Source: Candidatus Brocadiaceae bacterium
Lineage (GTDB): Bacteria > Planctomycetota > Brocadiia > Brocadiales > Brocadiaceae
DNA length: 32,421 nt
NCBI GenBank assembly: GCA_015661205.1
Contig: JACVXV010000071.1
Location: 1 to 32,421 of the forward strand
Reading direction: 5' to 3'
Positions 903-31,498 of the stretch are shown here, piece by piece. Position 1 is the stretch's first letter, and each line of letters opens with the position of its first letter. The notes beneath the pieces were generated by a model. It saw only the letters and a list, made by a program, of their open reading frames with translations, was not told the origin of the DNA and did no database searches. A program made the position numbers and the translations under genes.

Positions 903-1430
903 ATGAATAAATGTAAAATATTAGGGTTATTACTGGCGACATTTATAGGACTTGTGGGGTTCAATGAACTTACCTTTGCTGCCAGCAAGGGATTCGTCCC
1001 ACCCGCGTGGAGCCAGAAACTGCGTGCATCTGAGCGATTTCAACTGGTACTGGACAATGCTGCCGTGCTTGACAAGGAGACAGGGCTTGTGTGGGAAAAA
1101 TCCCCTGACACAACAGCGAGAAATTGGGCTGGTGCTATTTCCTACGCCTATATGAAAACGGTGGGTGGTCGTAAAGGGTGGCGGCTCCCCACGGTTGAGG
1201 AGTTGGCAAGTCTGGTAGACCCGACACAGTCAAATCCAAGCCTACCAAGTGGTCATCCATTTACCAATGTGCGGTCGGACTACTACTGGTCGTCTACTAC
1301 CCTTGCTTTCAGTACCAGTAACGCATGGGGCGTGGATTTCAGCGATGGTGGCGTGGACGGCCTCGATAAGAGCAACGACGGCTACTACGTATGGTGTGTA
1401 CGAGGCGGACAGGGCTATAATGCTCAATGA
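903..1430 (+). CDS. Secreted DUF1566 (Lcl, C-lectin-like) protein with DGR-like variable C-terminus
   Basis: The 175-residue protein begins with a Sec signal peptide (residues 1 to about 26, cut near TFAAS). It has one DUF1566/Lcl domain (PF07603), seen in LDKETGLVWEK, GWRLPTVEELASLVDP, YYWSSTT and the terminal YVWCVRGG. DUF1566 proteins adopt a C-type-lectin-like fold and are often extracellular binding proteins. Their natural ligand is unknown. The start is fixed by AAAGGAGG eight bases upstream. The segment 1302-1382 (residues 134-160) has the pattern of a diversity-generating retroelement variable repeat. Nearly all residues that are Asn in typical templates are diversified here, and every such codon ends in C or T. 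No reverse transcriptase or template repeat lies in this window. Short imperfect repeats (ATTTGGTG) follow the stop. Confidence 0.85.
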   Translation: MNKCKILGLLLATFIGLVGFNELTFAASKGFVPPAWSQKLRASERFQLVLDNAAVLDKETGLVWEKSPDTTARNWAGAISYAYMKTVGGRKGWRLPTVEELASLVDPTQSNPSLPSGHPFTNVRSDYYWSSTTLAFSTSNAWGVDFSDGGVDGLDKSNDGYYVWCVRGGQGYNAQ

Positions 1431-1470
1431 TTTGGTGATTTGGTGATTTGAGTTATTAGATTATTTGGGA

Positions 1471-1608
1471 CGTAGCGCGGGCGGTTCATCCCTCTCCACC
1501 GGTCAGTCGCAATGGATTGGTGTTACATTATGGGTATCGTATTAATAAAGACCGACCACAAGGGATCGGCGCTCACGGGAAACAATTCCGTAGCGCGGAG
1601 GTTTATCC
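1471..1608. repeat. Short dispersed repeat, two copies
   Basis: CGTAGCGCGG followed by GG(T/C)TCATCC-like sequence occurs at 1471-1491 and again at 1589-1608, in direct orientation and with a 1-base length difference. It lies in the gap between the DUF1566 gene and tRNA-Ala. No coding content is seen. Confidence 0.4.
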
Positions 1609-3468: not shown

Positions 3469-4125
3469 ATGGTTATCCATCAGCTCAATGTTGGGCCTTT
3501 GGAGGTGTGCTGTTATATCGTTGTCGATAGCGCATCTTCCGAGACAATCGTTATCGATCCCGGCGCGGATGCGGAAGTTATCACTGCGTTTATCATGGAA
3601 CGGCGGCTGATCCCCCGGTTGGTTGTCATTACGCACGGGCATGGAGACCACATAGGCGCCAACGCGGCGCTGAAAAAGAGGTTTCCGGACGTACAGTTAT
3701 GCATTCATGAGGAAGATCAGGATATGCTGCCGTACCCGGCAAAAAATCTCTCTATCCTTGCCGCCTTTTTTGGCGGTTCTACGGTGCGCTCCCCTTTGGC
3801 AGACCGGATTTTGAAGGACGGAGACGTGGTTTCCATTAAGGGATGCGACTTTGAGGTCATCCACACACCGGGACACACCCGGGGCGGGATATGTTTGTTC
3901 AGTAAAACACGGGAGGGCGAATTGCCTCCCGTGTTGTTTTCAGGTGACACCCTTTTTAAGGATGGTATTGGAAGAACGGATTTTCCCGGCTGCAGCCAGG
4001 AACGGCTGGTTCAGGCCATCAGGGAACGGTTATTTGTGCTTAATGAAAAGACGGTTGTCTATCCGGGACATGGCCAATCCACAACTATTGCAGAAGAGAA
4101 AAGAAACAACCCTTTTTTGAGATAA
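3469..4125 (+). CDS. Metallo-beta-lactamase-fold hydrolase (glyoxalase II-like)
   Basis: This 218-residue cytosolic protein has the complete metal-binding set of the MBL superfamily: THGHGDHIG (HxHxDH, about residues 47-55), HTPGHTRGG (third His), SGDTLF (bridging Asp) and YPGHG (last His). It belongs to the YcbL/GloB-like group, which commonly hydrolyses thioesters such as S-lactoylglutathione. The real substrate cannot be told from sequence, and the C-terminal glutathione-binding domain of true GloB is absent. It starts 6 bases after the NDK-like gene, with GAGGA overlapping the upstream stop region, so the two are probably co-transcribed. Confidence 0.85.
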   Translation: MVIHQLNVGPLEVCCYIVVDSASSETIVIDPGADAEVITAFIMERRLIPRLVVITHGHGDHIGANAALKKRFPDVQLCIHEEDQDMLPYPAKNLSILAAFFGGSTVRSPLADRILKDGDVVSIKGCDFEVIHTPGHTRGGICLFSKTREGELPPVLFSGDTLFKDGIGRTDFPGCSQERLVQAIRERLFVLNEKTVVYPGHGQSTTIAEEKRNNPFLR

Positions 4126-4284
4126 AGCAACTGCTCCGGTTATACAAAACGATGAAGAAGCTACGTATTCAAAAATGTCCTCACACGAAGGCACAAAGGC
4201 ACGAAGAAATGACGGAAAACGAAACTGGTAATGATTTTTAATGTGCTTCTATTAAGGTTCTCACAGCAAGCGAGGTAAATGCGC

Positions 4285-6786
4285 ATGGGCGAAAGAAGAG
4301 AAAACATAAAAGATTTATTCATCGAAGAAGAGATGAAGGATTCATACCTCAGTTACGCAATGAGCGTTATCATGAGCCGCGCGCTTCCGGACGTACGGGA
4401 CGGCCTAAAGCCGTCGCAGCGGCGTATCCTTGTCGCCATGAACGATCTGAATTTGGGGCCCCGTACCAAGTTCAGGAAATGCGCGAAGATTGCCGGCGAT
4501 ACCACGGGAAATTATCACCCGCACGGCGAGCAGGTGGTTTACCCCACCCTTGTTCGTATGGCACAGGATTTTAATTTCCGGTATCCCCTCGTTGATGGAC
4601 AGGGAAACTTCGGCTCGATAGACGGCGACCCGCCCGCAGCCATGCGTTACACAGAGGCACGCATGACGGAGGTCACCATGATCCTTATGGAAGACCTGGA
4701 AAAGAACACGGTTGACTACGTGCCGAATTATGACGATACGCGTACGGAACCAGTCGTCCTTCCTTCTAAATTCCCCAATTTGCTTTGCAATGGATGCTCC
4801 GGTATTGCCGTCGGCATGGCCACCAGCATCCCACCCCACAACGTTAATGAAATTTGCGATGGTATGCTTATGATTATTAACAATCCGGACGTTACCGTCG
4901 ATGAATTAATGGAGGTTATCAAAGGGCCTGACTTCCCTACGGGGGCGTTAATTTGCGGGACTGCCGGAATTAAGGAAGGCTACCGCACGGGGCGCGGAAC
5001 GATTACCGTCCGCGCACGCGCACACGTGGAAACGACAAAAACCGGAAAGAAGAGCATCGTGGTGACCGAGATACCTTACCAACTCAACCGGGATAACATA
5101 CTCGAACGGCTCGCGGATCTGGTGCGTGAAGAGACGATCAAGGGCATTTCCGACATCCGCAATGAAAGCGACAGGCAAGGAAGCCGCCTGGTTGTCGATT
5201 TGAAAAAAGGGGAAGAAGAGGAGGTGGTCTTGAACCAGTTATACAAGCACACCAAACTCCAGGACAGTTTCAGCATCATCATGATCGCCCTCGTAAACAA
5301 CCGCCCGGAAACACTTAACCTGAAGCAAATGCTGGTACACTATCTCGAACACCGCAAGGTCGTTATCATCCGCAGGACAAAATATCTTCTCGATAGGGCG
5401 CAGGCCAGAGCTCACATCCTGGAGGGATTAAGGATTGCCCTTCAAAATATCGACGAAATCATCAAATTAATCAAAACCTCCGAATCGGTGGACCACGCGC
5501 GGCAGGGGCTGATAAGCCGGTTTTCCCTTACTGAACTGCAGGCAAACGCCATCCTGGATATGAAGCTCCAAAGGTTAACCGGGCTTGAGCAGGGAAAGAT
5601 TGAGGAAGAGTATAAGAAAATATGCGCCGAAATTAAAGAGTACCAGGCTATTTTGTCGCAAGACAAGCTGGTGCTGAACATCATCAAAAACGACATCATA
5701 GAAATCAAAGACCGCTTTGGCGACAAACGGCGCACCGAAATTGTAAGCGCCGTCGGCGATTTCAACCTGGAAGACCTCATTGCGGAGGAAAACGTCGTTG
5801 TTATCATCAGCCACGAGGGGTACATCAAGCGGCTGCCCCTTGATGCTTATCGCAAGCAGCACAGAGGCGGCAAAGGCGTCAGCGGATCGGAAATGAAGGA
5901 AGGGGATTTTATAGAAAACCTCTTTGTCGCTTCGACCCATGATTACATCCTTTTCTTTACCGATCAGGGACGGGTTTACTGGCAGAAGGTCTATGACATC
6001 CCTCAGATGGGTAAGGCAGCCAAGGGGCGTGCAATTATCAACCTCCTGGAACTGAAAGAAGGGGAAGGCGTAACATCCCTTATTCCCGTGCGTGACTTCG
6101 ACGAACGCCAGCTCGTGATGGCGACCGGCAATGGAACGATTAAAAAGACGGTATTACGCGCTTACGGCAACCCGAAAAAGGGCGGCATCATTGCTATTAA
6201 CCTGGATGAGGGCGATAAGCTGATCGGCGTTAAAATGACCAACGGCAAGCAGGACATCATCCTCGGCACCGAACAAGGGAAGGCCATCCGGTTTTCGGAA
6301 GAAAACGTCAGGACGATGGGACGCGTAACGCATGGAGTAAAAGGCATCACCTTAAAGGGAGACGACAGAGTAAGGGGTATGGTGGTTGTGGATGAGAACG
6401 CCACGCTGCTCACCGTCTGCGCAAATGGCTTTGGAAAGCGCACCGATTTCTCTGAGTATCCTGCCCACCACCGGGGTGGACAAGGTGTTATCAACATCAA
6501 GACGACCGACAGAAATGGAAACGTTGTTGCGCTCATTGACGTCAGGGATACGGATGAGTTGATTATGATTACCGCAAAGGGCATGGTTATCCGCACGTCG
6601 GTGAGAACCATCCGTTCCATAGGAAGAAACACCCAGGGCGTCACGCTCTTTTCTGTAGAGGAGGGAGACAAGCTTGTTTCTGTGGCTCGTGTTGTTCCTG
6701 AGGAACCAAGTTCGGAAGATGATACCGGGATTGCCGCGCCGGGAGAAGCTAACGGTAGCGCTACGCCGGAAAAAACGGAAGAGTAA
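4285..6786 (+). CDS. gyrA: DNA gyrase subunit A
   Basis: The ~833-residue protein carries the full GyrA architecture. It has the N-terminal breakage-reunion domain (LPDVRDGLKPSQRRIL) and the active-site Tyr in AMRYTEARM (Tyr122 counting from ATG 4285, as in E. coli). It also has the tower and coiled coil, and a C-terminal beta-pinwheel with a GyrA box QHRGGKG near residue 525 (canonical QRRGGKG) and a related HHRGGQG later. The GyrA box separates it from ParC. With GyrB it introduces negative supercoils using ATP. The reading frame also has an ATG at 4279, but GAGG (4272-4275) is only 3 bases from it and 9 from ATG 4285, so I prefer 4285. The quinolone-resistance region reads HPHGEQVVYPT: Glu82, Gln83, Pro87 instead of Asp, Ser, Asp. 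gyrB is not adjacent. The acidic, low-complexity tail (PEEPSSEDDTG onward) is typical. Confidence 0.97.
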   Translation: MGERRENIKDLFIEEEMKDSYLSYAMSVIMSRALPDVRDGLKPSQRRILVAMNDLNLGPRTKFRKCAKIAGDTTGNYHPHGEQVVYPTLVRMAQDFNFRYPLVDGQGNFGSIDGDPPAAMRYTEARMTEVTMILMEDLEKNTVDYVPNYDDTRTEPVVLPSKFPNLLCNGCSGIAVGMATSIPPHNVNEICDGMLMIINNPDVTVDELMEVIKGPDFPTGALICGTAGIKEGYRTGRGTITVRARAHVETTKTGKKSIVVTEIPYQLNRDNILERLADLVREETIKGISDIRNESDRQGSRLVVDLKKGEEEEVVLNQLYKHTKLQDSFSIIMIALVNNRPETLNLKQMLVHYLEHRKVVIIRRTKYLLDRAQARAHILEGLRIALQNIDEIIKLIKTSESVDHARQGLISRFSLTELQANAILDMKLQRLTGLEQGKIEEEYKKICAEIKEYQAILSQDKLVLNIIKNDIIEIKDRFGDKRRTEIVSAVGDFNLEDLIAEENVVVIISHEGYIKRLPLDAYRKQHRGGKGVSGSEMKEGDFIENLFVASTHDYILFFTDQGRVYWQKVYDIPQMGKAAKGRAIINLLELKEGEGVTSLIPVRDFDERQLVMATGNGTIKKTVLRAYGNPKKGGIIAINLDEGDKLIGVKMTNGKQDIILGTEQGKAIRFSEENVRTMGRVTHGVKGITLKGDDRVRGMVVVDENATLLTVCANGFGKRTDFSEYPAHHRGGQGVINIKTTDRNGNVVALIDVRDTDELIMITAKGMVIRTSVRTIRSIGRNTQGVTLFSVEEGDKLVSVARVVPEEPSSEDDTGIAAPGEANGSATPEKTEE

Positions 6787-7221
6787 GGATGCACACCGTG
6801 CGATAGGCATAAAACCACGGTAATGGAGCGATTCACCGCAGATGGCGCAGAGAATTACAACGCAAGAGAAAACATCATTCTGGATTTACGTGGTTTATCT
6901 TCACAAATAGGCAGAGTCTTAAAAAAATGCTATTGGAACCACAGATTACACAGATTACACAGATAAAACCACAACGGAACAAATGGTTTAAAAAGTGGTC
7001 AGGATGTAAACACCTTGCCTTTTTTTCTACGGGAGATTTTCGAAATCTTCCTTAAAATAAGGGGAAAACGGGGAGGTTGTCTTTTATCATTACCGGTATT
7101 TCATAAGTGTTACCAAAAATCTAAAATAAATTGTGGGATTCGATGGTCCACAATCTGTGTAATCTGTGAAATCTGTGGTTCCAAGCCATGTTTCTCATGA
7201 CGTTGCCAAAACGAGGTTTCC
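6787..7221. repeat. Intergenic region with 30-bp inverted repeats (ATCTGTG family)
   Basis: The 30 bases at 6935-6964 and those at 7153-7182 are inverted repeats differing at one position. They are built from ACAGATT/AATCTGT units and enclose 188 bases without a credible gene. Partial relatives occur near 19040, 22410 and 26008. The region also holds the GAGG ribosome site (7213-7216) of the next gene. Confidence 0.7.
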
Positions 7222-8247
7222 TTGACGTCCCCCGACATAAAAAACATCATCATCCGTTCACCCAACTGGGTGGGCGACGTTGTTATGGCTACGCCCGCCT
7301 TCCGGTGCATCAGGGAATCATTTCCCGCCGCCAAAATAACCGTCGCCTTGAAGCCCTACGTAATAAAGCTTATCGAAGGTTCTCCCTGGTTTGACGAAAT
7401 AATGCTCCTGGATAAAAACACCCCTTCCCTTGCCGTCATAAAACAAATCCGCTCTAAAAAATATACCCTTGGCTTTCTGCTTCCCAACTCCTTTAGCTCG
7501 GCGCTCACGTTTTGGCTGGGTGGGGTAAAGCGGCGGGTAGGATATAAACGGGACGCCCGTTCATGGCTCCTGACCGATGGCGTTCCGCGCCCGTCTGAAA
7601 ACGGGAGTTTTCTGCCCACTTACATGGGAGACTACTACCTCCGTTTGTGTGCAGAGGTGGGATGCAAGCCGCATTCGAAAGAACTGGAGTTGTTTGTTTC
7701 CCCTGAAGCGCAGCAACGCGTGGTAGATATCTTTAAAAAATACCACCTCAACAATGGGATCCCCCTCATCCTCATAAATCCAGGTGCGGCTTACGGCTCT
7801 TCGAAATGCTGGACGGCTGAAGGGTTCGCCGGAACAGCCGACCTTATAAGGGAGCAAGTGGAATGCAACGTAGCCGTTACCTGCGCGCCTCACGAACAAA
7901 AACTTGCTACAGACATTGTCTCAAAGGCAAAGTCAAGGGTGATTAATCTGGCAAGCGATATCGGGTCGCTGGACGTCCTCAAGGCGCTTGTTAAAAGGTG
8001 TGCCTTATTAATCACCGTAGACTCCGGCCCCCGGCACATCGCCGTAGCATTCAAAAGACCCGTTATAACGTTGATGGGCCCAAATGACCCGCGTTACACC
8101 GCATCCCCTGCCGAGATAGGGCAAGTAATCAGGGCGGACGTGGATTGCCTGGCGTGCCATCTAAAAACATGTCCGAAAGACCACCGCTGTATGACGCAGA
8201 TAAAACCGGAACGGGTTGCGCAGGCGGGATTGGAGATGCTTAAATAA
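7222..8247 (+). CDS. Family 9 glycosyltransferase, heptosyltransferase II-like
   Basis: This 341-residue protein fits the ADP-heptose:LPS heptosyltransferase II group (GT9). It starts IIIRSPNWVGDVVMATPAFR, the N-terminal signature of the family, and has ILINPGAAYGSSKCW at the domain boundary. The nucleotide-sugar site reads LLITVDSGPRHIAVAF, followed by LMGPNDPRYT and a Cys-rich C-terminal stretch (DCLACHLKTCPKDHRCM) often seen in WaaF. Family members add heptose to the inner core of lipopolysaccharide at the cytoplasmic face of the inner membrane. The start is a TTG with GAGG five bases upstream; no ATG lies near the fold start. It stands alone between repeats and a two-component cluster. 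The exact sugar and acceptor are inferred. Confidence 0.85.
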   Translation: MTSPDIKNIIIRSPNWVGDVVMATPAFRCIRESFPAAKITVALKPYVIKLIEGSPWFDEIMLLDKNTPSLAVIKQIRSKKYTLGFLLPNSFSSALTFWLGGVKRRVGYKRDARSWLLTDGVPRPSENGSFLPTYMGDYYLRLCAEVGCKPHSKELELFVSPEAQQRVVDIFKKYHLNNGIPLILINPGAAYGSSKCWTAEGFAGTADLIREQVECNVAVTCAPHEQKLATDIVSKAKSRVINLASDIGSLDVLKALVKRCALLITVDSGPRHIAVAFKRPVITLMGPNDPRYTASPAEIGQVIRADVDCLACHLKTCPKDHRCMTQIKPERVAQAGLEMLK

Positions 8248-8484
8248 CCGGAGAAACGTAACTACTCAGGTAGATAGGCTGAAGGCTAAATCGTATATGA
8301 TTACACAAAATTTCTGGCAGGCGAAGGCTTTTAACCTTTGGCAATTTTCTTCGGTTTTGTTACATTGACTTTTAATGAGAAAAAGCAATTTCCTGCCATC
8401 TTCAAAGGATTGGTGGTAGTATTGTAAGACATAAAATGCAACGGATATTATCATGCGCAAGCAGAAGGAGGTCTTTAGTAGGAA

Positions 8485-9954
8485 ATGAAAAAAATATTGT
8501 GGATTGAGGATAATATAGAAACTGTCGAGCCTTTGAGTTTTGCCCTGGAGGAAGAAGGTTGCAAGGTAATCTTCGCCAGGAATGGACAATCAGGGATTGA
8601 AATGGTCTCTTCGATGAAGCCGGATATCATCCTGCTTGATATTAAGCTTCCGGATATTGATGGTTTTGAGATATGCCGCATGCTGAAATCCAAACAGGAG
8701 TATAAATCAATTCCCATTATCATGATGACAGGGCTGGGTGACACAGAAAGCGCGGTACAAGGGCTTTCTGCCGGGGCAGATGACTTTGTTTCCAAACCGC
8801 CAAATTTTAAGGAATTCCTGGCACGCGTAAAATCACATCTGAAAATGAAGGAATTGTATGATGCGGTAAAAAGTGAAGAGGAAGACAAATCCGCCATCCT
8901 TGATGTATCCAAAGCCCTCTCTGCAACCATAGACCCCTATGAAACTCTTTACACTATTTGTAGAAGAATTGCCGATGTCATGGACGTCAAACGTTGTTCC
9001 ATAATCTATGTGGACAACTTTAAAAAAGAAGCATACGTTATGGCTTCACACGATTCCAGGGAAATCAAACACCTTGAAATCAATCTTGATAAATATCCCG
9101 AAATTCAAAAAGTTATGGAAACGGGAAATGCCGTGGTCATAAACGATGTGTATAACGACCCTATCCTTTTTTCCGTGCGGGGGGTACTTAGCCTGATTGA
9201 TATTAAGTCCATCATGGCCTTCCCGGTCATCTTCAAAGATACCATTATCGGCACCCTTGTTCTCCGCACCTCCAGAAGGGAAGAGCCTTTTAATAGTCGT
9301 GAGATCCGGTTCTGTGAAGTGATATCCCATCTTGCCGCCGCACCGCTTAAAAACGTTTATCTCTTTGATGTCCTCCACAAAGAAAAAGAACTGGAAAAGG
9401 AAAAACGCATTAGCGCGGAGGAAAAAATACGTAAATTATCGGTTGCTGTAGAACAAAGCCCGAGCCCAATTATCATTACGGATACCAATGGCATCATAGA
9501 ATATGTAAACTCCAGTTTCACACAATTGACCGGGTATGCAGCCAAAGAAGCTATTGGGCAAACCCCTCGCATCCTTAAATCAGGCAAGGTATCGCCGGAA
9601 GAATACGAACGGTTATGGAAGACTCTCACCTCTGGAGACAAATGGCGGGGGAGATTTTGTAATAAGAAAAAGGACGGCACAGTTTACTGGGAGGAGGCCA
9701 CTATCTCTTCTCTTAAAAACGAGGGTGGCGATATCACACATTACATTGCGGTAAAGGTAGATATTACCGACCGCAAGCGGGCCGAGGAAGAATTGATAAA
9801 AATTACCGGGGAGTTGAGAGAGAGAAATGAAGAACTTGAAAAATTCCAAAGAATAACCGTCGGCAGGGAGCTTGATATGATAAAATTGAAGAAAATGGTG
9901 AATACGCTTCTTGAAGAGTTAGGAAGGCCAACGGAATATGAAGTACCGGATTAG
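8485..9954 (+). CDS. REC-GAF-PAS signalling protein without kinase domain
   Basis: The 489-residue cytosolic protein has three domains. A receiver domain (1-120) has the acidic pair Glu8-Asp9, phospho-acceptor Asp52 in ILLDIKLPD, and the conserved Lys in SKPP. A GAF domain spans about 140-285 and a PAS/PAC domain about 325-445 (VEQSPSPIIITDTNGIIEYVN through YIAVKVDITDRKRAEEEL). The C-terminus is a coiled coil (LEKFQRITVGRELDMIKLKK), a linker normally found in front of kinase or cyclase modules, yet the protein stops there. It therefore has input domains but no recognisable output. AAGGAGG lies upstream of the ATG (about 8465-8471). It probably receives phosphate from, or docks to, the kinases downstream. 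Confidence 0.85.
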   Translation: MKKILWIEDNIETVEPLSFALEEEGCKVIFARNGQSGIEMVSSMKPDIILLDIKLPDIDGFEICRMLKSKQEYKSIPIIMMTGLGDTESAVQGLSAGADDFVSKPPNFKEFLARVKSHLKMKELYDAVKSEEEDKSAILDVSKALSATIDPYETLYTICRRIADVMDVKRCSIIYVDNFKKEAYVMASHDSREIKHLEINLDKYPEIQKVMETGNAVVINDVYNDPILFSVRGVLSLIDIKSIMAFPVIFKDTIIGTLVLRTSRREEPFNSREIRFCEVISHLAAAPLKNVYLFDVLHKEKELEKEKRISAEEKIRKLSVAVEQSPSPIIITDTNGIIEYVNSSFTQLTGYAAKEAIGQTPRILKSGKVSPEEYERLWKTLTSGDKWRGRFCNKKKDGTVYWEEATISSLKNEGGDITHYIAVKVDITDRKRAEEELIKITGELRERNEELEKFQRITVGRELDMIKLKKMVNTLLEELGRPTEYEVPD

Positions 9955-10176
9955 ATAGACAAGACATACATGGGTACATCCTCTATCCCATTTTTAATTA
10001 GCAGGTAAAATACTACGATAAACCGCACAATGGCTTTAAAGGCATTGCGATATTTGATGTAATGTACATGCTAAAGTGGGATAGAGTATTACTCTGTAAA
10101 AACATCTTTTTTTGTAACACTTTAGTTTATTGAAAAAATCTGAAAAGCTCCATGAGCCGCGGCATATAAGGCGTAG
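9955..10176. other. Intergenic stretch, nothing recognised
   Basis: This stretch between the REC-GAF-PAS gene and the palindromic repeat is AT-rich. I found no gene, no terminator and no remnant of a membrane sensor that could be the missing N-terminal part of the downstream kinase. Confidence 0.4.
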
Positions 10177-10475
10177 GTGTTAAATTAAGAAATAAAACAG
10201 CGAACAAACTCAGCCTAGCCGTATTAACAATATAGCCCCAAAGGGGCGCAATACAACAGCCCATGGCAGCGCCCTGGGTTTAGCATTTCTAGCACAACAA
10301 GCCCTGAAGGGGCGATATTGGGGATAAAACTGCGGTTCATTCCGTATTGCGCCCTTTCAGGGATTGCCGGTTTTTCCGGGTACCCAGGGCGTTGCCCTGG
10401 GCTAAGCTATTTCGCCCCTTCAGGGCTAACAAAAACAATGGTTTGGTGGTAATTATAGGTTTCTTAACTTAACAC
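10177..10475. repeat. Composite palindromic repeat, copy A, with terminal inverted repeats
   Basis: The element is bounded by GTGTTAAATTAAGAAA (10177-10192) and the inverted GTGTTAAGTTAAGAAA (10460-10475), a 16-base terminal inverted repeat with one difference. Inside is a series of GC-rich palindromes (AGCCCCAAAGGGGC, CCCAGGGCGTTGCCCTGGG, GCCCTGAAGGGGCG). The part 10234-10475 reappears in inverted orientation at 12076-12318. A related copy is at 19080-19326. No transposase is encoded. It ends five bases before the kinase ORF at 10480, and contains an in-frame stop (10465-10467). Confidence 0.8.
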
Positions 10476-10479
10476 TTCA

Positions 10480-12000
10480 ATGGCTTTTGATCAAATGACC
10501 GAAAATTTAAAGAAAACAACTGTCTCCAGAGATTATACAGATAACATTATTAAGAGCATGACCGATACTCTTATTGTCGTAGCGCCTAATGCCTTGATAC
10601 AGTCTGTTAATCAGTCCCTCTGTAATCTTTTAGGGTATCGGGAGGAAGAATTGTCCGGTCAACCAATAAGCAAAATCTTTGATGAAAGTGTAATCTTTAA
10701 GAGAACAACAAATGGAGAGGTAATTATAAACGAATCTGTCACTAGCATGGAGAGCGTTTATCTATCAAAAGACAGTAGAAAAATACCGGTACTCTTTTCA
10801 AAGTCAATAATGTGTGATAGTGAAAAAAAGCTCGTAGGAATAGTTTGTATGGCAGTAGACATCACCGAACGTAAGCAGGCAGAAGAGGCGCGAAGAAGAA
10901 TTGAAGTAAAATATAGAAATATTATCAAAGATATCTTTAAATTTATACCAGATGGACTTTTGGTTTTTACGGAACAATTAGAATTATATAGAAAAAACAA
11001 AGCCTTTCAGAACCTCATTACGGTCTCTTCTAAAAGATTAAACTATACAGAAGAAGAACTTGCGGAAAAAATTTATGAACAGGTAAAATACAAGGTAAGC
11101 AACAGGGATAGCACAGAAATAATAGTTATGGAAAAAGGCGCCAATGAAGCAGAAAAGCTTGTTTTAGAACTAAATGTAACAAGGCTGTCTTTTCCAGAAG
11201 AAGAAACCAACGTTGTCGTATCGCTTAAGGACATTACAGATCGCAATCGAGCAGAGGAAAACCTTAAAAATGCCTATAATGAACTTAAGGCAACACAAAA
11301 GGCCAGCTTGAATATTATGGAAGATCTTTGTCGTCGTCGAAGTGAATTAGCTGTCGCTCTCGAAGAAAAAGAAGTGCTTCTTAAGGAAATCCATCACCGG
11401 GTAAAAAACAATATGCAGATTGTATCCAGTTTGCTCAAGTTTCAGTCTGAAAATATCAAGGAAGCACAATATATTGAAATGTTTAATGAATGCCGAAACC
11501 GGATACAGGCGATGTCTCTCATTCATGAAAAGCTTTACAGTTCAAAAGATACTGCAAGCATTAACTTTAAGGATTATGTTGAGGACGTGGCAAATAATTT
11601 GTTTCGATTCTACAAGATAAGTTCGGCAAAGATAAAGCTGGTAATAGACGTTGCTGATATAACCTTTAATATTGAAACTTCTATACCCTGCGGATTGATC
11701 ATCAATGAATTTATCTCTAATTCCCTAAAATATGCCTTTCCTGATAACAGGGAAGGTGAAATCAAAATATCTTTACACAAAATTGAAAAGTCTAACGTGG
11801 AGTTGGTGCTGAGCGATAATGGCATTTGCATACCGGATGATATAGATTTCAGAAATACCAAATCATTAGGCCTGCGTCTCATCACCAATTTATCAGAGCG
11901 TCAGCTTGATGGGAAAATTGAGTTGGACAGGAGCCATGGTACGGAATTCAGGATCAGGTTTGAGGAGTTAAAGTATAAGGATAGGATTAAATATACTTAG
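10480..12000 (+). CDS. HisKA_2-type sensor histidine kinase, apparently 5'-truncated
   Basis: The 506-residue product has two PAS domains (about 22-135 ending AVDITERKQAEE, and 145-258 ending LKDITDRNRAEE). A coiled coil precedes a HisKA_2 dimerisation domain with EIHHRVKNNMQIV (His305/306 phospho-acceptor). The ATPase domain has the N-box NEFISNSLKYAF and the G-box DNGICIPDD, where the usual second Gly is Cys. The N-terminus AFDQMTENLKKTTVSRDY is the very end of a HAMP domain, normally preceded by membrane helices and a periplasmic sensor. Those are missing: the ORF begins five bases after a palindromic repeat, with an in-frame stop inside the repeat and no Shine-Dalgarno sequence. It is either a decaying remnant or a newly cytosolic kinase. 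It is more AT-rich than its neighbours and is flanked by inverted copies of the repeat. Confidence 0.7.
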   Translation: MAFDQMTENLKKTTVSRDYTDNIIKSMTDTLIVVAPNALIQSVNQSLCNLLGYREEELSGQPISKIFDESVIFKRTTNGEVIINESVTSMESVYLSKDSRKIPVLFSKSIMCDSEKKLVGIVCMAVDITERKQAEEARRRIEVKYRNIIKDIFKFIPDGLLVFTEQLELYRKNKAFQNLITVSSKRLNYTEEELAEKIYEQVKYKVSNRDSTEIIVMEKGANEAEKLVLELNVTRLSFPEEETNVVVSLKDITDRNRAEENLKNAYNELKATQKASLNIMEDLCRRRSELAVALEEKEVLLKEIHHRVKNNMQIVSSLLKFQSENIKEAQYIEMFNECRNRIQAMSLIHEKLYSSKDTASINFKDYVEDVANNLFRFYKISSAKIKLVIDVADITFNIETSIPCGLIINEFISNSLKYAFPDNREGEIKISLHKIEKSNVELVLSDNGICIPDDIDFRNTKSLGLRLITNLSERQLDGKIELDRSHGTEFRIRFEELKYKDRIKYT

Positions 12001-12075
12001 CGAAAAGCCTGCAAACGGGAAATTGAATGTTATGCATGAAAGGCCGATAGGATATAGCGGGGGATGAAGCCATAG

Positions 12076-12318
12076 GTGTTAAGTTAAGAAACCTGTAATT
12101 ACCACCAAACCCTTGTTTTTGTTAGCCCTGAAGGGGCGAAATAACTCAGCCCAGGGCAACGCCCTGGGGACAGCGGAACAACCAACAAGCCCTGAAAGGG
12201 CGTAATACGGAACGAACCGTTGTTTTGCGCCCAATGTCGCCCCTTCAGGGCTTGTTGTGCTCATAATGCTAAACCCAGGGCACTGCCTTGGGCTGTTGTA
12301 TTGCGCCCCTTTGGGGCT
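12076..12318. repeat. Composite palindromic repeat, copy B (inverted relative to copy A)
   Basis: The sequence from GTGTTAAGTTAAGAAA (12076-12091) to GGGGCT at 12318 is the reverse complement of 10234-10475. In the first ~92 bases only about four positions differ; the remainder has a few more. The far end lacks the outer terminal repeat seen in copy A. The kinase gene is thus enclosed in a long inverted repeat of about 242 bp per arm. An ORF here (12220-12447) is a translation of repeats and is not a gene. Confidence 0.85.
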
Positions 12319-12612
12319 GGTTATGTTATTGCATTAATCAGGGGCTTCACCCCTGGCTATATACTTTCAGCCCTTCGGGCCTGTTGTAGAGTGATCCATC
12401 AGGGTGTTGCGCAACCCCGGTGTGTGGTCAGACGTCAGCAAGGCTAAAGCCTTGCCCTACGTATTAAGCAGGCAAAAGCCACCAAAGGTATAATTTAATG
12501 TACAGGAAATTCAAATGTGCATGTAGTGGCAAGGCGCGCCTTGCCACTACGCAGTTAAAAGTCGCCGTAGGCATAATCTAAAATTATGTTTTCCAGCGAA
12601 AAGGGGTAAATT
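12319..12612. repeat. Cluster of small palindromes upstream of the hybrid kinase
   Basis: Perfect or near-perfect hairpins are CAGGGGCTTCACCCCTGG (12339-12356), GCAAGGCTAAAGCCTTGC (12438-12455) and a perfect 28-base palindrome at 12523-12550 centred on GGCGCGCC. A 21-base unit at 12557-12577 is the exact inverse of 2008-2028. The ribosome site AAAAGGGG (12599-12606) of the next gene closes the region. Confidence 0.65.
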
Positions 12613-14721
12613 ATGTCAAAAAAACGAATAATGATTGTGGAAGATGAATGGATTATCGCTGAAGATATACAGAAATGCTTAAATAAATTGGGTTATGCCG
12701 TCTCAACGATAGAATCATTCGGGGAGAAGGCAGTTCAAAAAGCAGAGGAGGACAAGCCCGATTTAATATTGATGGATATTGTGCTAAAAGGGGAGATGGA
12801 TGGAATTGAAGCGGCGCGTCAAATTTATACAAGATTCGGTATTCCCATTGTCTTTCTTACTTCCTCATACACAGGCAGTAAAGCGCTGGAACGGGCAAAG
12901 ACGTCAGAACCCTTCGGGTATTTGCTCAAACCATTTAGAGAAAGCGCATTGCACTCTACCATTGAAATTGCTCTTTACAAACACAGCGCCGAGCAAAAAT
13001 TAAAGATACTCAATGAAACACTTGAACTTCGCGTAGAAGAGCGCACAAGGGAATTATCGGATCGTTCTCTATTAGCCGAACTGAGTGCGGAAGTGGGGCT
13101 AACGGTTATTCAAAAAGGCGCCATCCCCGACATTTTACAAAAATGCACAGAAGCGCTTGTTCGGCATCTTAATGTGGCATTTGCCCGTATTTGGCTTTTT
13201 AATGAAGAAAAAAATATCCTGGAGTTACAAAGCAGCGCAGGAATCTACACCCACACGGACGGTGAACATAAAAGTATACCCATGGGAAAATACAAAATCG
13301 GCCTTATCGCTCTGGAGCGCAAACCGCATTTAACCAATAGCGTCATTGGAGATCCGGAAATACATAACCAGGAGTGGGCAAAGCGCATGGGATTGATCTC
13401 CTTCGCCGGTTATCCCATTGTCATCGGAGAGCACCTCATTGGAGTGATGGGGATGTTTGCACAAAAACCGCTTACCGATATTACTCTTAAAGCGCTTGAA
13501 TCGATAGCAGATACTATCGCACTGGGTATAGAGCGAAAGCAGATTGAAGAAGAACACGAAAAAACAAAAGAGCTACTCTACCACGCGCAAAAAATAGAAT
13601 CAATAGGAAGACTTGCGGGCGGAGTTGCCCATGACTTTAACAATGTTCTCATGGCTATCATAGGGTATGCCGATCTGATACGGACGACAATAAAAGAGGA
13701 TGATCCTATACAAAATTTCACAGAAAAAATACAGGCATCTGCTCAGAAGGCTACCCGCTTAACTCAAAGTCTCCTGGCCTTCAGCAGAAAACAGCCCATA
13801 ACTCTCGAACCGGTTAATATTAATACCATCATTAAAAACCTGGATACCCTTTCACACGGACTCCTTAACGAATCAATAGAGTATAAGTTATCACTCACCG
13901 AAAGGGATCATCTGGTGATGGCCGGCGTGGATCTTATAGAACAGGTTATAATGAACCTGGCGACAAATGCCAGAGATGCAATGCCTGACGGCGGTATTTT
14001 CACGATAAGTACGGATATCGTAGACTTGGATACTGAATGTGCAAAGCGTTATGGCCTTGCTAAAACAGGCGAACATGTTGTTTTGAAGATATCCGATACC
14101 GGAGTGGGAATGGATGAGGAAACAAAGGGAAAGGTTCTTGAACCGTTTTTCACTACCAAAGCAAAAGGAAAGGGTACCGGACTTGGCCTTTCTATTGCGT
14201 GTGGGATTATAAAACAGCATAACGGTCATTTGCAAATACTTAGTAAACCGGGCAAGGGAACAACCGTTGAGATATATCTACCCTTGGCGGATGCATCAGA
14301 GAAACAAAAAGACATTAAAAAGACGCCAGGAACAGCCGTACCCTCTGTGAGGGCATCAGAGACGATATTGCTGGCGGAAGACGATGAAGACGTGCGGTTC
14401 GTTTTGGCAAAGATATTTGAGCGTAAAGGCTACAGGGTAATTGCAGTAGCGAATGGTGATGAGGCCATACATAGATACAAGGAGATGAAGGACGATATCC
14501 ATATACTGGTATCCGATGTCATGATGCCTACTAAAAATGGAATGCAGGCCTATAATACAATAATGGAAATAAGACCCAACCTGAAAGTCCTTTTCCTTAG
14601 CGGTTATTCAGATGAAGAGGCGCTTAACAGCAAAATTCTTGCAGAAGGACTGTCCTATTTGCAGAAGCCGGTTACCCAAGAGGTGTTGTTGAAGAAAGTG
14701 AGGGAAATATTGGATAGCTGA
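12613..14721 (+). CDS. Hybrid sensor kinase, REC-GAF-HisKA-HATPase-REC
   Basis: The 702-residue cytosolic protein has an N-terminal receiver domain (1-120; Asp55 in [10 protein letters not shown], Lys106 in LLKPF). A coiled coil (RVEERTREL) leads to a GAF domain (about 155-305). The kinase core has [15 protein letters not shown] with phospho-acceptor His340. The ATPase lobe has [10 protein letters not shown] (N-box), DTGVGMDEE and GTGLGLS (G-boxes). A C-terminal receiver (about 585-702) has the acidic cluster AEDDED, Asp in [11 protein letters not shown] and Lys in LQKP. This arrangement suits a phosphorelay. With the REC-GAF-PAS protein and the HisKA_2 kinase just upstream it could form one signalling network, although repeats separate the genes and each seems to have its own promoter. 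No DNA-binding output is encoded nearby. Confidence 0.9.
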
Positions 14722-15240
14722 AACTGGAAACGACGTACTGGCTAATTACGACGTGTGCTGTCGCATGTTATCGGTTGACGGTGTTTGGTAGGTATGAATA
14801 TAACGGCAAAGGTTGTGCCGCCCCTACGGGGCTAAAACAACAGGTGTATCCCTTTACCCACCGCTTACGCAGTGGGCTACGGTTGTTACACCCCGATGGG
14901 GTGTCTTTGTCATGCCCCGTTAGGGGCAACACAATAGTAGCCCACTGCGCAAGTGGTGGGAAAACTATTGGTCGCGTAGAATTATGGAGACCTTTAGCCA
15001 AATTGCCCTTATAACTCCGCGTAATCAAAGGGTGCCATTACGCCAGGTCTCTCTTTTTCTATGCTACCCGGAGGGGCGGCACAAATTAAAACATTCAAGT
15101 ATTCTTTTGTACAACACCAAAAATAGTTGCGTAATTAATGCATAGCAAAGTTCCGTTAGGAACGATATATTGGTAGAAAATAAACGGAGAAACAGTATTA
15201 GTTCCGGCGGTTGTCTTTTATCGCCGGATCCGCCATGTCT
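14722..15240. repeat. Intergenic region with palindromic repeats (family 2)
   Basis: The block at about 14811-14960 has GCCCCTACGGGGC, CCCACCGCTTACGCAGTGGG (14857-14876), CACCCCGATGGGGTG, GCCCCGTTAGGGGC and an inverse unit CCCACTGCGCAAGTGGTGGG (14941-14960). These are the same units as at 533-722. The rest (14961-15240) shows no gene. The gap separates convergent genes, so the hairpins may also serve as transcription terminators. Confidence 0.6.
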
Positions 15241-16194
15241 TTACTTAAACAGCCAGTACACATAAACACCATACCCGCTTAGCAAAAACAGACCCTGCAG
15301 GCGGGAAATAACGAACTTCCAGGTGATGATGGGAACGAGGAAGATGCTGAAGAAGAGCATTACGGGCATATCCAAGCGAAGAGAGATGGGGTTGACCAGT
15401 ATCGGTTGAATCATTGCGGCCACCCCCAGTACGGCCAGGATATTGAAGATATTGCTGCCCACAATATTGCCGACGCTGATGTCCGCCTGCTTACGGATGC
15501 TGGCGACGACGGAAGTGGCCAACTCGGGAAGCGAGGTGCCTACGGCAATAACGGTAAGCCCGATAACCAGCTCGCTGATGCCCATGACTTTTGCAATATA
15601 AACCGCTGCATGGACAAGCAAATGCGCCCCTGCAACAAGCGCCACGAGTCCTACAATAATCAATATGACGTCCTTCATTAAACCGTCGTGTGCCGTTCTG
15701 ATTAATTCTTCAACTTCAGGATGTTCACTCGCAGCGGCCTTAGAGCCACTTATAGCAGCGATGTATACGTAAAAAGTATAAGCAACGATACCCACAAAAA
15801 GGGCAACCCCTTCCCAACGGCTAAGCACACCATCCCAACTTATGAAATAGAGGAAGCAGGCACAGCCTATCATAACAGGCATGTCACGGTTAAGGAGATT
15901 CATGTCAATTTTGAGGGGACGAACGATTGCTGAAAGGCCGAGGATAAGGGCGATATTGGCTATGTTGCTTCCTACAATATTGCCGACTGCAATGTCATTG
16001 AAATGTTTGATGCCCGCTATCACGCTGGTAACAAGTTCCGGCATGGAAGTGCCAAAGGCCACAATCGTAAGGCCGATAACGACCGGTTTGATGTGTAACG
16101 CGTGCGCAAATCTCGCCGCACCGGTAACAAGCCATTCAGCCCCATAATAGAGTCCCACAAGACCCACGAAAAGCAAAACTATTTGTAACGTCAT
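15241..16194 (-). CDS. Na+/Ca2+ antiporter, CaCA family (YrbG-like)
   Basis: The 317-residue membrane protein has about ten hydrophobic helices and two homologous halves. Each half carries the CaCA alpha-repeat: GLTIVAFGTSMPELVTSV with GNIVGSNIANI in the first, and GLTVIAVGTSLPELATSV with GNIVGSNIFNI in the second. The two Glu residues in the PEL motifs bind the transported cations. Family members exchange Na+ or H+ for Ca2+ across the inner membrane. The central loop (KAAASEHPEVEEL) is short, as in the bacterial YrbG group. The start ATG at 16194 has GGAGG five bases upstream. It is the first of a run of three minus-strand genes, but the gaps suggest separate transcripts. Confidence 0.93.
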   Translation of the reverse strand: MTLQIVLLFVGLVGLYYGAEWLVTGAARFAHALHIKPVVIGLTIVAFGTSMPELVTSVIAGIKHFNDIAVGNIVGSNIANIALILGLSAIVRPLKIDMNLLNRDMPVMIGCACFLYFISWDGVLSRWEGVALFVGIVAYTFYVYIAAISGSKAAASEHPEVEELIRTAHDGLMKDVILIIVGLVALVAGAHLLVHAAVYIAKVMGISELVIGLTVIAVGTSLPELATSVVASIRKQADISVGNIVGSNIFNILAVLGVAAMIQPILVNPISLRLDMPVMLFFSIFLVPIITWKFVISRLQGLFLLSGYGVYVYWLFK

Positions 16195-24940: not shown

Positions 24941-25007
24941 GCATAACGACAAAACTCAGCGGCGGCGAGCGCCTTTCCTCGCCGTCCGCTGGAGTAAGTT
25001 GTTAGAT
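24941..25007 (-). other. Integron attC recombination site
   Basis: Read on the minus strand, the site begins with ATCTAAC (R'', perfect RYYYAAC, 25001-25007). It ends with GTTATGC (R', 24941-24947; one mismatch to GTTRRRY). The 67 bases fold into a hairpin: AGCGG, an unpaired A, CGGCGAG on one arm, an 8-base loop GAAAGGCG, and CTCGCCGCCGCT on the other, 12 pairs in total. An extrahelical base is typical of attC. Unpaired spacers of 8-9 bases separate this stem from the R boxes. The vapC stop codon (TAA) lies inside the R'' box, as is common in gene cassettes. Confidence 0.85.
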
Positions 25008-25397
25008 TGCAATTGTCTTTAGATGTAAATATTTTTCCATTGGATCAAAATCCTTGTCATCATGTAACAGTGAGCACTGATAATGAATGCAAAAAGTGCC
25101 AATCATTACATCTATAGTCTTACGAACAGTGACGCCATTCTTTCTGAGAAACCGATAGTTCAATGCGCTTTTTATAGCCAAATCCTGACCAACCATCTCC
25201 ATGAATGGAAAGTCCAAGAGCAAATTTCTAGCTGTTCTGAAATCATTGTCGCTTTGGAATCCTTGTAGTATCTCAGCCAAAATGAGGTCGCCAACAATAA
25301 TATGTTTATTTCCTATGGCAGAATCCAACCAATCAGTTTTATCGGTTTTCCTACCATTAAAATAGTCAATCCAGACTGATGAATCTACTAATATCAT
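25002..25397 (-). CDS. vapC: VapC-type PIN-domain toxin
   Basis: The 131-residue protein is a PIN-domain RNase. It begins MILVDSSVWIDYFNG with the first catalytic Asp (residue 5), has VGDLILAEILQG (Glu), and TIDVMIGTFC plus LLHDDKDFD with the later acidic residues. VapC toxins cut tRNA or rRNA and stop translation. The start ATG overlaps the antitoxin stop by four bases. The stop codon sits in the attC site, marking the gene as part of an integron cassette. The length is normal and all key acids are present, so it should be functional. Confidence 0.92.
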   Translation of the reverse strand: MILVDSSVWIDYFNGRKTDKTDWLDSAIGNKHIIVGDLILAEILQGFQSDNDFRTARNLLLDFPFMEMVGQDLAIKSALNYRFLRKNGVTVRKTIDVMIGTFCIHYQCSLLHDDKDFDPMEKYLHLKTIAI

Positions 25398-25588
25398 TTG
25401 TCTGTCCGCATCTCGTCCAGATTACCAACCCATTTCAGTTTACCTCGAAAATCTTTAACTTTTGTTTGACGATTAAACTTCACCAACAGTTGTAACCCAG
25501 CTTCTATGGCGTCTTTTTTTGTTCTCAACCCTGAAAACTTAAGCGCTGATTTCATTAAATCATCGTCAATAACAACATTTGTTCTCAT
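25394..25588 (-). CDS. vapB: VapB-type antitoxin (DUF2191)
   Basis: From ATG 25588 the protein has 64 residues: MRTNVVIDDDLMKSALKFSG at the start, then LRTKKDAIEAGLQLLVKF. This is the DUF2191/VapB ribbon-helix-helix pattern, followed by a C-terminal tail (DFRGKLKWVGNLDEM) that binds the toxin. The frame is open farther upstream, but GGGGGG lies just before ATG 25588 and the family starts there. It overlaps vapC by four bases (ATGA). A perfect inverted repeat upstream is the likely operator for autoregulation. Confidence 0.9.
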   Translation of the reverse strand: MRTNVVIDDDLMKSALKFSGLRTKKDAIEAGLQLLVKFNRQTKVKDFRGKLKWVGNLDEMRTDK

Positions 25589-25600
25589 TTTTACCCCCCA

Positions 25601-25628
25601 TGTGTATAAATATGCCTTATTATACACA
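25601..25628 (-). promoter_or_regulatory. Promoter/operator of vapBC
   Basis: TGTGTATAA (25601-25609) and TTATACACA (25620-25628) are perfect inverted repeats with a 10-base spacer. On the minus strand TATAAT (25619-25624) could be the -10 box, so the repeat covers the promoter. This layout fits autorepression by the VapBC complex. It lies inside the cassette. Confidence 0.65.
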
Positions 25629-30913: not shown

Positions 30914-30938
30914 TAACACAAAGTGTTATCATGTGTTA
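30914..30938. promoter_or_regulatory. Likely operator of the CopG/ParE operon
   Basis: TAACAC (30914-30919) and GTGTTA (30923-30928) form a perfect inverted repeat with a 3-base spacer. A third half-site GTGTTA is at 30933-30938, just before the ribosome site AAAGGAGG (30939-30946). Ribbon-helix-helix antitoxins bind such repeated short half-sites to repress their own operon. Confidence 0.5.
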
Positions 30939-30953
30939 AAAGGAGGCGTTGAA

Positions 30954-31217
30954 ATGAACACTACATTAACCATAAGGATAGATGACAAGACAAAGCAAAA
31001 ACTGGAACGTCTTGCCTCCGCTACGGCAAGGTCCAAGTCCTATCTTGTGTCCACCGCAATCAATGAATTTATTGAGGCTAACGAATGGCAGATACAGGAG
31101 ATAATAAAAGCTGTTAAGAAGGCAGACCTGCCCGATGCAAAATTCATTGACCACGAAGATGTTGCAGCGTGGCTTGACTCATGGGGCACAAAAAATGCAA
31201 AGAAACCCCCAAAATGA
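30954..31217 (+). CDS. Ribbon-helix-helix (CopG-type) antitoxin
   Basis: From ATG 30954 the protein has 87 residues. LTIRIDDKTKQKLERLA is the beta-strand and first helix of the ribbon-helix-helix fold, and RSKSYLVSTAINEFIEANEWQ is the second helix with its loop. The acidic tail (FIDHEDVAAWLDSWG) is the usual toxin-binding part. AAAGGAGG (30939-30946) supports this start rather than GTG 30933. The stop overlaps the toxin start by four bases (ATGA). Confidence 0.9.
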   Translation: MNTTLTIRIDDKTKQKLERLASATARSKSYLVSTAINEFIEANEWQIQEIIKAVKKADLPDAKFIDHEDVAAWLDSWGTKNAKKPPK

Positions 31218-31498
31218 AAATACGATGGTTGAGTGACGCGGTTGACGATCTGATAGAGATATCGGATTACATTGCAAATGATAACCCAAACGCAGCCAGG
31301 GATATTGCAGTACGTATTAAGCATAGTATCGACAGTCTTAAAGAATATCAGTCCATAGGAAGACCTGGACGGGTAGAAGGAACACGTGAGCTTGTTGTTT
31401 CAGGTCTTCCCTACATCATCCCCTACCGTGTAAAAAACAATGTGGTAGAAATTTTGCGTGTGCTGCATGGAGCAATGCAATGGCCGGAGAAGTTATGA
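31214..31498 (+). CDS. ParE/RelE-family toxin
   Basis: The 94-residue protein begins MKIRWLSDAVDDLIEISDYI and has IGRPGRVEGTRELVVSGLPYIIPYRV then VEILRVLHGAMQWP, the pattern of ParE/RelE-fold toxins. ParE proteins inhibit gyrase and RelE cleaves mRNA; the group cannot be settled from sequence alone. The start ATG overlaps the antitoxin stop by four bases, and the antitoxin lies upstream as expected. A 23-codon frame follows by another four-base overlap (31495-31566, MNDLPKEWAITLQSW) and may be the remnant of a further gene. Confidence 0.88.
   Translation: MKIRWLSDAVDDLIEISDYIANDNPNAARDIAVRIKHSIDSLKEYQSIGRPGRVEGTRELVVSGLPYIIPYRVKNNVVEILRVLHGAMQWPEKL

Follow-up and report, generated by a model that had tools for sequence, protein, structure and literature searches.

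A very probable DGR variable repeat in a DUF1566 lectin gene of Brocadiaceae, with the matching cassette absent from the assembly

The window analysed here, a stretch of 32,421 nucleotides, is the entire contig C219 of a Brocadiaceae (anammox-family) MAG with a genome of 3.9 Mb in 292 contigs and a completeness of 96.7%. Near the start of the contig there is a gene coding for an Lcl_C/DUF1566 C-type-lectin protein, and we consider it very probable that positions 1263–1409, located at the 3′ end of this gene, are the variable repeat of a DGR target. The cassette matching it is absent from the assembly and hence would be either unassembled, acting in trans, or lost, leaving the repeat frozen. 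The features referred to below are as follows.

903..1430, plus strand: target gene, an ORF coding for an Lcl_C/DUF1566 C-type-lectin protein of 175 aa
903..986, plus strand: hydrophobic N-terminus, a probable signal peptide with an approximate end (by-eye reading of MNKCKILGLLLATFIGLVGFNELTFAAS)
1062..1403, plus strand: Lcl_C domain with the C-type lectin fold (Pfam, AlphaFold and structure matches)
1263..1409, plus strand: variable repeat (very probable), matched to the template of contig C227 in the relative G032, with 23/53 adenines and 3/91 other bases changed
1302..1382, plus strand: core segment of the original prediction, in which 14 of the 17 codons listed correspond to template Asn and three are constant
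1377..1385, plus strand: site of the codon that is extra compared to the G032 template, within an AAC run, the exact placement in the run being ambiguous
1386..1409, plus strand: conserved 3′ block TACGTATGGTGTGTACGAGGCGGA closing the repeat, common to the template and the targets
1428..1466, plus strand: conserved 3′ flank (TGATTTGGTGATTTG...), common to homologues of other genomes
1467..1496, plus strand: site at which most close relatives have a GC-rich hairpin, degraded in the window according to the fold z

The target gene and its product

The Pfam profile Lcl_C (DUF1566, PF07603) matches aa 54–167 of the product with an E value of 7.8e-29 and a score of 100.8 bits, thus passing the profile threshold (curated cut-off 34.9). 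The AlphaFold model has a mean pLDDT of 84 and is confident except for the N-terminus, with the blocks from aa 41 to 170 averaging more than 90. The top PDB match of the model is the C-terminal domain of Legionella Lcl (8q4e), followed by a Bdellovibrio domain and then by C-type lectins, with Mtd variants matching weakly. Judging by its N-terminal sequence the protein is probably secreted, and it may function as a secreted ligand binder.

About 240 bases past the target gene, the minus strand carries a tRNA-Ala (GGC) gene (1670–1745). Further along the window, two small gene pairs at 25002–25627 and 30933–31498 resemble, by eye, toxin-antitoxin modules of the VapBC-like and RelE/ParE-like kinds.

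A template in a relative and the adenine bias of the repeat

A family-wide search with the RT of contig C193 of the window's own genome as a query led to an RT in the relative G032 (contig C227, 685–1640), which is 51–60% identical to the query and has a broken frame. Immediately upstream of this DGR RT, at 539–682, there is an Asn-rich near-copy of the window repeat. Its translation, NVQSNNYWSSTTNVNNTSNAWNVNFNNGNVNNNDKSNNNYVWCVRGGA, is an Asn-rich DUF1566 tail, which is the kind of template postulated by the original prediction. The broken RT frame in G032 is followed by an ORF with a match to MutS domain I (locus L188, 1729–2238), possibly fused to the RT C-terminus.

Compared to this template, the window repeat is changed at 23 of 53 adenines and at 3 of 91 other bases (Fisher p = 2.7e-9). 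The adenine changes comprise 14 to G, six to T and three to C, and the three remaining ones, from template to window, are GTT>GCT, the third base of AAC>GAT, and GTG>GTA. The third base is retained in 17 out of 18 AAY codons. Such a bias relative to a template lying beside an RT bears out what had been proposed from the window alone, namely a DGR variable repeat in a DUF1566 lectin arising by adenine mutagenesis of AAC/AAT codons. DUF1566 proteins had also been named there as known DGR targets, and in the literature they are indeed among the commonest ones (PMC4159848, PMC6642488).

The codon alignment underlying these counts permits adenine mismatches by design; an ungapped adenine-tolerant scan of 548 loci, which covered the part of the repeat preceding the extra codon, is independent of it. 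The G032 template alone was close to the repeat, with mismatches at 2 of 69 non-adenine and 21 of 45 adenine positions, while the runner-up, L066, a copy of the target from a MAG bearing the label Nitrospirae, had 16 non-adenine mismatches out of 89. As a positive control of method and domain, a template with zero or one non-adenine mismatch was recovered on the same stretch in 26 further, independent loci whose target is an Lcl_C protein, in most cases with an RT match adjoining the template. When L066 is itself compared to the G032 template, 23/53 adenines and 2/91 other sites are changed, and for the more diverged Lcl_C homologues L062 and L178 the p values are 0.07 and 0.06, respectively.

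The reading of the ORF, its residues and its codons in the original prediction was accurate, and all 17 codons listed as diversified Asn do end in C or T. Fourteen of them correspond to AAC/AAT in the template (13 aligned and one being the extra codon), and the other three, S at 1317–1319 (AGT), D at 1365–1367 (GAT) and S at 1371–1373 (AGC), are constant template codons. The span of 1302–1382 assigned to the repeat was too narrow, as the repeat occupies 1263–1409 and diversified codons beyond that span include R at 1272–1274 (from CAG), D at 1278–1280, Y at 1281–1283 and Y at 1383–1385. The framework DNA of the repeat is TGGTCGTCTACTACC...ACCAGTAACGCATGG. Homology to the G032 template stops at the conserved 3′ block (1386–1409), which, judging by the position of the IMH in known DGRs, is a putative IMH that may function as such.

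Inside an AAC run, the window repeat has one codon more than the G032 template. The C193 repeat likewise exceeds its own template by one codon in an AAC run (L014, 5330–5400), as does the repeat of L144 with respect to the template it was compared with, and a template remnant in the genome G014 has four Asn codons at the extra-codon site. The simplest reading is that the true template of the window had four Asn codons at this site, like the G014 remnant. The excess in L014, L144 and the window (1377–1385) could come from template slippage or from different templates. That AAC runs generally undergo slippage was rejected, a gap being present in only one of the 26 control pairs. It is conceivable, though rather unlikely, that AAC runs change in length and so add loop-length diversity to residue diversity.

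Ca. Brocadia sapporoensis and Brocadia sp. WS118 were each found to have three homologues of the target, and Brocadiaceae S40-1 two. The framework and the gene body are kept in them, and the differences fall at the same positions as in the window. The three B. sapporoensis copies differ pairwise at 43–55% of the template-adenine sites, at 7–13% of the other repeat sites and at 5–8% of the body. The relatives are hypervariable at exactly the type of codon singled out in the original prediction. For the window and L066 the corresponding differences are 42%, 3% and 27%. At the template-Asn codons the residue entropy amounts to 2.27 bits, compared with 0.57 bits for the remainder of the repeat and 0.62 bits for the gene body.

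As for the way in which such a repeat would arise, an error-prone DGR RT would copy an Asn-codon-rich template RNA, misreading adenines, and the cDNA would replace the 3′ end of the lectin gene, thereby renewing some 18 residues of the lectin domain and leaving the framework as it was. The window repeat was presumably produced by retrohoming of this kind.

Cassettes in the window's genome and in the family, and the state of the repeat

Two RTs of the window's genome, on contigs C193 and C153, carry the DGR-type motif IGNLTSQ...YCDD, and each is accompanied by Avd or a piece of it and by a template, neither cassette being cognate to the window repeat. In the C153 cassette, a Metallophos-NACHT-FGE-sulfatase target is combined with an RT, a template and Avd (NCBIfam E = 5e-34), and over a 60-base stretch there are 12 adenine differences and none at other bases between template and repeat. 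This cassette lies on the minus strand at 4560–9587 of the locus L021 (C153 bases 4000–16000), and beyond the 60 bases an AAC-run indel shifts the register between its template and repeat. On C193, the RT and a DUF1566-type template are accompanied by an N-terminal piece of Avd and by a repeat that is truncated and has 15 adenine mismatches to the template over 60 bases and zero at other bases. In this cassette, which lies at 4495–5400 on the minus strand of the locus L014 (C193), the repeat has lost the 5′ part of its gene. The Avd ORF of C193 is truncated and reads into the template in another frame; a weak Avd match at 1244–1381 of the window was discarded as a counterpart of the tail of this ORF.

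No RT or Avd remnants were found in the window. Both BLASTN of the window repeat against its own genome and an adenine-tolerant pattern for 1300–1414 with up to three mismatches returned the self match only. An ungapped pattern would miss a template shorter by one codon, and the main basis for this negative finding is therefore a BLASTN search that used the G032 template as the query and at E ≤ 0.1 revealed no template in the window's own genome besides that of C193. The original prediction had placed the template and the RT outside the window and proposed a genome-wide search for a near-copy. The two DGR RTs of the genome and the template of a relative agree with the former, and a near-copy beside an RT does exist in G032, but the searches of the window's own genome did not bring up a template that matches, so what was called a remote variable repeat may in fact be an orphaned one. 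A missing template in a fragmented MAG is not proof, and it weakens the claim of a working system rather than the claim of a DGR origin for the repeat. An exact copy of the 3′ block was absent from the viral contigs searched, phage records contained no match, and plasmids contained distant DUF1566 proteins only. No intact cassette carrying a G032-type template was seen, the RT frame in G032 being broken.

Just downstream of the repeat, most close relatives have a GC-rich hairpin; it is present in the loci L057, L058, L060 and L066 and, with a different sequence, in L061. At the corresponding site the fold z is +1.58 in the window and from −1.9 to −3.4 in the relatives. The hairpin is listed among the elements that appear critical for efficient retrohoming (PMC4372165). 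The hairpin repeat GTAGCGCGGGGGTTCATCCCCCGC, located 3′ of the target in the genome G007, has no match in the window with three mismatches allowed.

In the family, the genomes G005, G007, G011 and G031 possess targets without a DGR RT match at E ≤ 1e-20, one of the G005 targets being followed by a hairpin, an Avd piece and then sequence without an RT. In G014, Avd is followed by the template remnant. Taken together with the broken RT of G032, these observations make the Brocadiaceae DGR cassettes look worn. Several nearly complete genomes contain one to three diversified copies and no detected DGR RT. It is conceivable, though we would rate it as rather unlikely, that Brocadiaceae keep dispersed DGR-written lectins which outlive their cassettes, the repertoires being frozen or else renewed by a visiting mobile cassette.

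The template and RT of the repeat might be present in the cell, missed by the 292-contig assembly, and diversify the gene in trans today. The fragmentation of the assembly and its incomplete state agree with such an active remote repeat, as do the low number of non-adenine differences, which suggests recent writing, and the trans-acting DGR loci described elsewhere (PMC10907252). We nevertheless regard it as the less probable state, considering the BLASTN search with the G032 template, the degraded hairpin of the window and several relatives in which an RT went undetected as well. As the cassettes of the own genome mismatch the repeat and the hairpin is degraded, the repeat is to be viewed as remote or orphaned, and, the cassettes of relatives being worn as well, we lean towards an orphaned repeat that would have been diversified not long ago, a reading which a missing contig could overturn.

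The C193 cassette could be considered as the source, as it is in the same genome, has an RT and an Asn-rich DUF1566-type template, and its template shares 79% DNA identity with that of G032. Its 16 non-adenine mismatches to the window out of 69 in the aligned part, as against 3/91 for the G032 template, rule it out as the parent of the window repeat, and its 3′ block is different (CCGGTTCGCGCAGGA), which makes this origin highly improbable. An ordinary Lcl_C protein with loops varying by normal divergence and selection, without any DGR, is hardly credible. The constant residues do partly belong to a general family pattern, W.SST...AW.V.F..G being common to distant Lcl_C homologues, but the differences from an RT-adjoining template are restricted to adenines, the framework DNA is far better conserved than the body with adenine sites near saturation, and the diverged homologues L062 and L178 do not show the adenine bias.

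Relation to known systems

DGR targets with a DUF1566 domain are already known, as are DGR loci that are remote or incomplete, and the window repeat adds one more such case. Like other DGRs with DUF1566/Lcl_C targets, it has a C-terminal position, an Asn-rich template and adenine-only differences, and relatives have Avd and an RT in their cassettes; unlike them, the window target stands alone, with RT, Avd and template absent nearby and the assembly lacking a template that matches. A literature search yielded no paper naming both DGRs and Brocadia, although two DGR papers mention anammox. The present data extend DGR diversification to probably secreted lectins of the anammox family. They also represent a case in which a variable repeat was recognised from a single sequence without its template, the template type being found later in a relative. 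As the cassettes of these dispersed targets are missing or broken, it becomes testable whether binders made by a DGR persist as fixed genes once the mutator is lost.

In the founding system, the DGR of Bordetella phage BPP-1, the variable repeat is likewise borne by a C-type lectin fold. Its target Mtd, a tail protein of the phage, belongs to another sequence family and has its cassette in cis, and the window differs from BPP-1 in its degraded hairpin. The C-terminal domain of Legionella Lcl (8q4e) has the same domain family and fold as the window protein, the identity in the structural alignment being 23%.

For Thiohalocapsa PB-PSB1, DGR loci that are remote or incomplete have been reported (PMC10907252), and structural variants with an intact RT/TR were visible in long reads only. 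That genome and the window's genome both have targets away from the RT and several DGRs each. Some of the PB-PSB1 targets match a template of the same genome perfectly at non-adenine positions and vary in the population, whereas for the window repeat no matching template was found in the same genome. The Metallophos-NACHT-FGE-sulfatase target of C153 resembles the putative antigen sensors described in the same work (PMC10907252).
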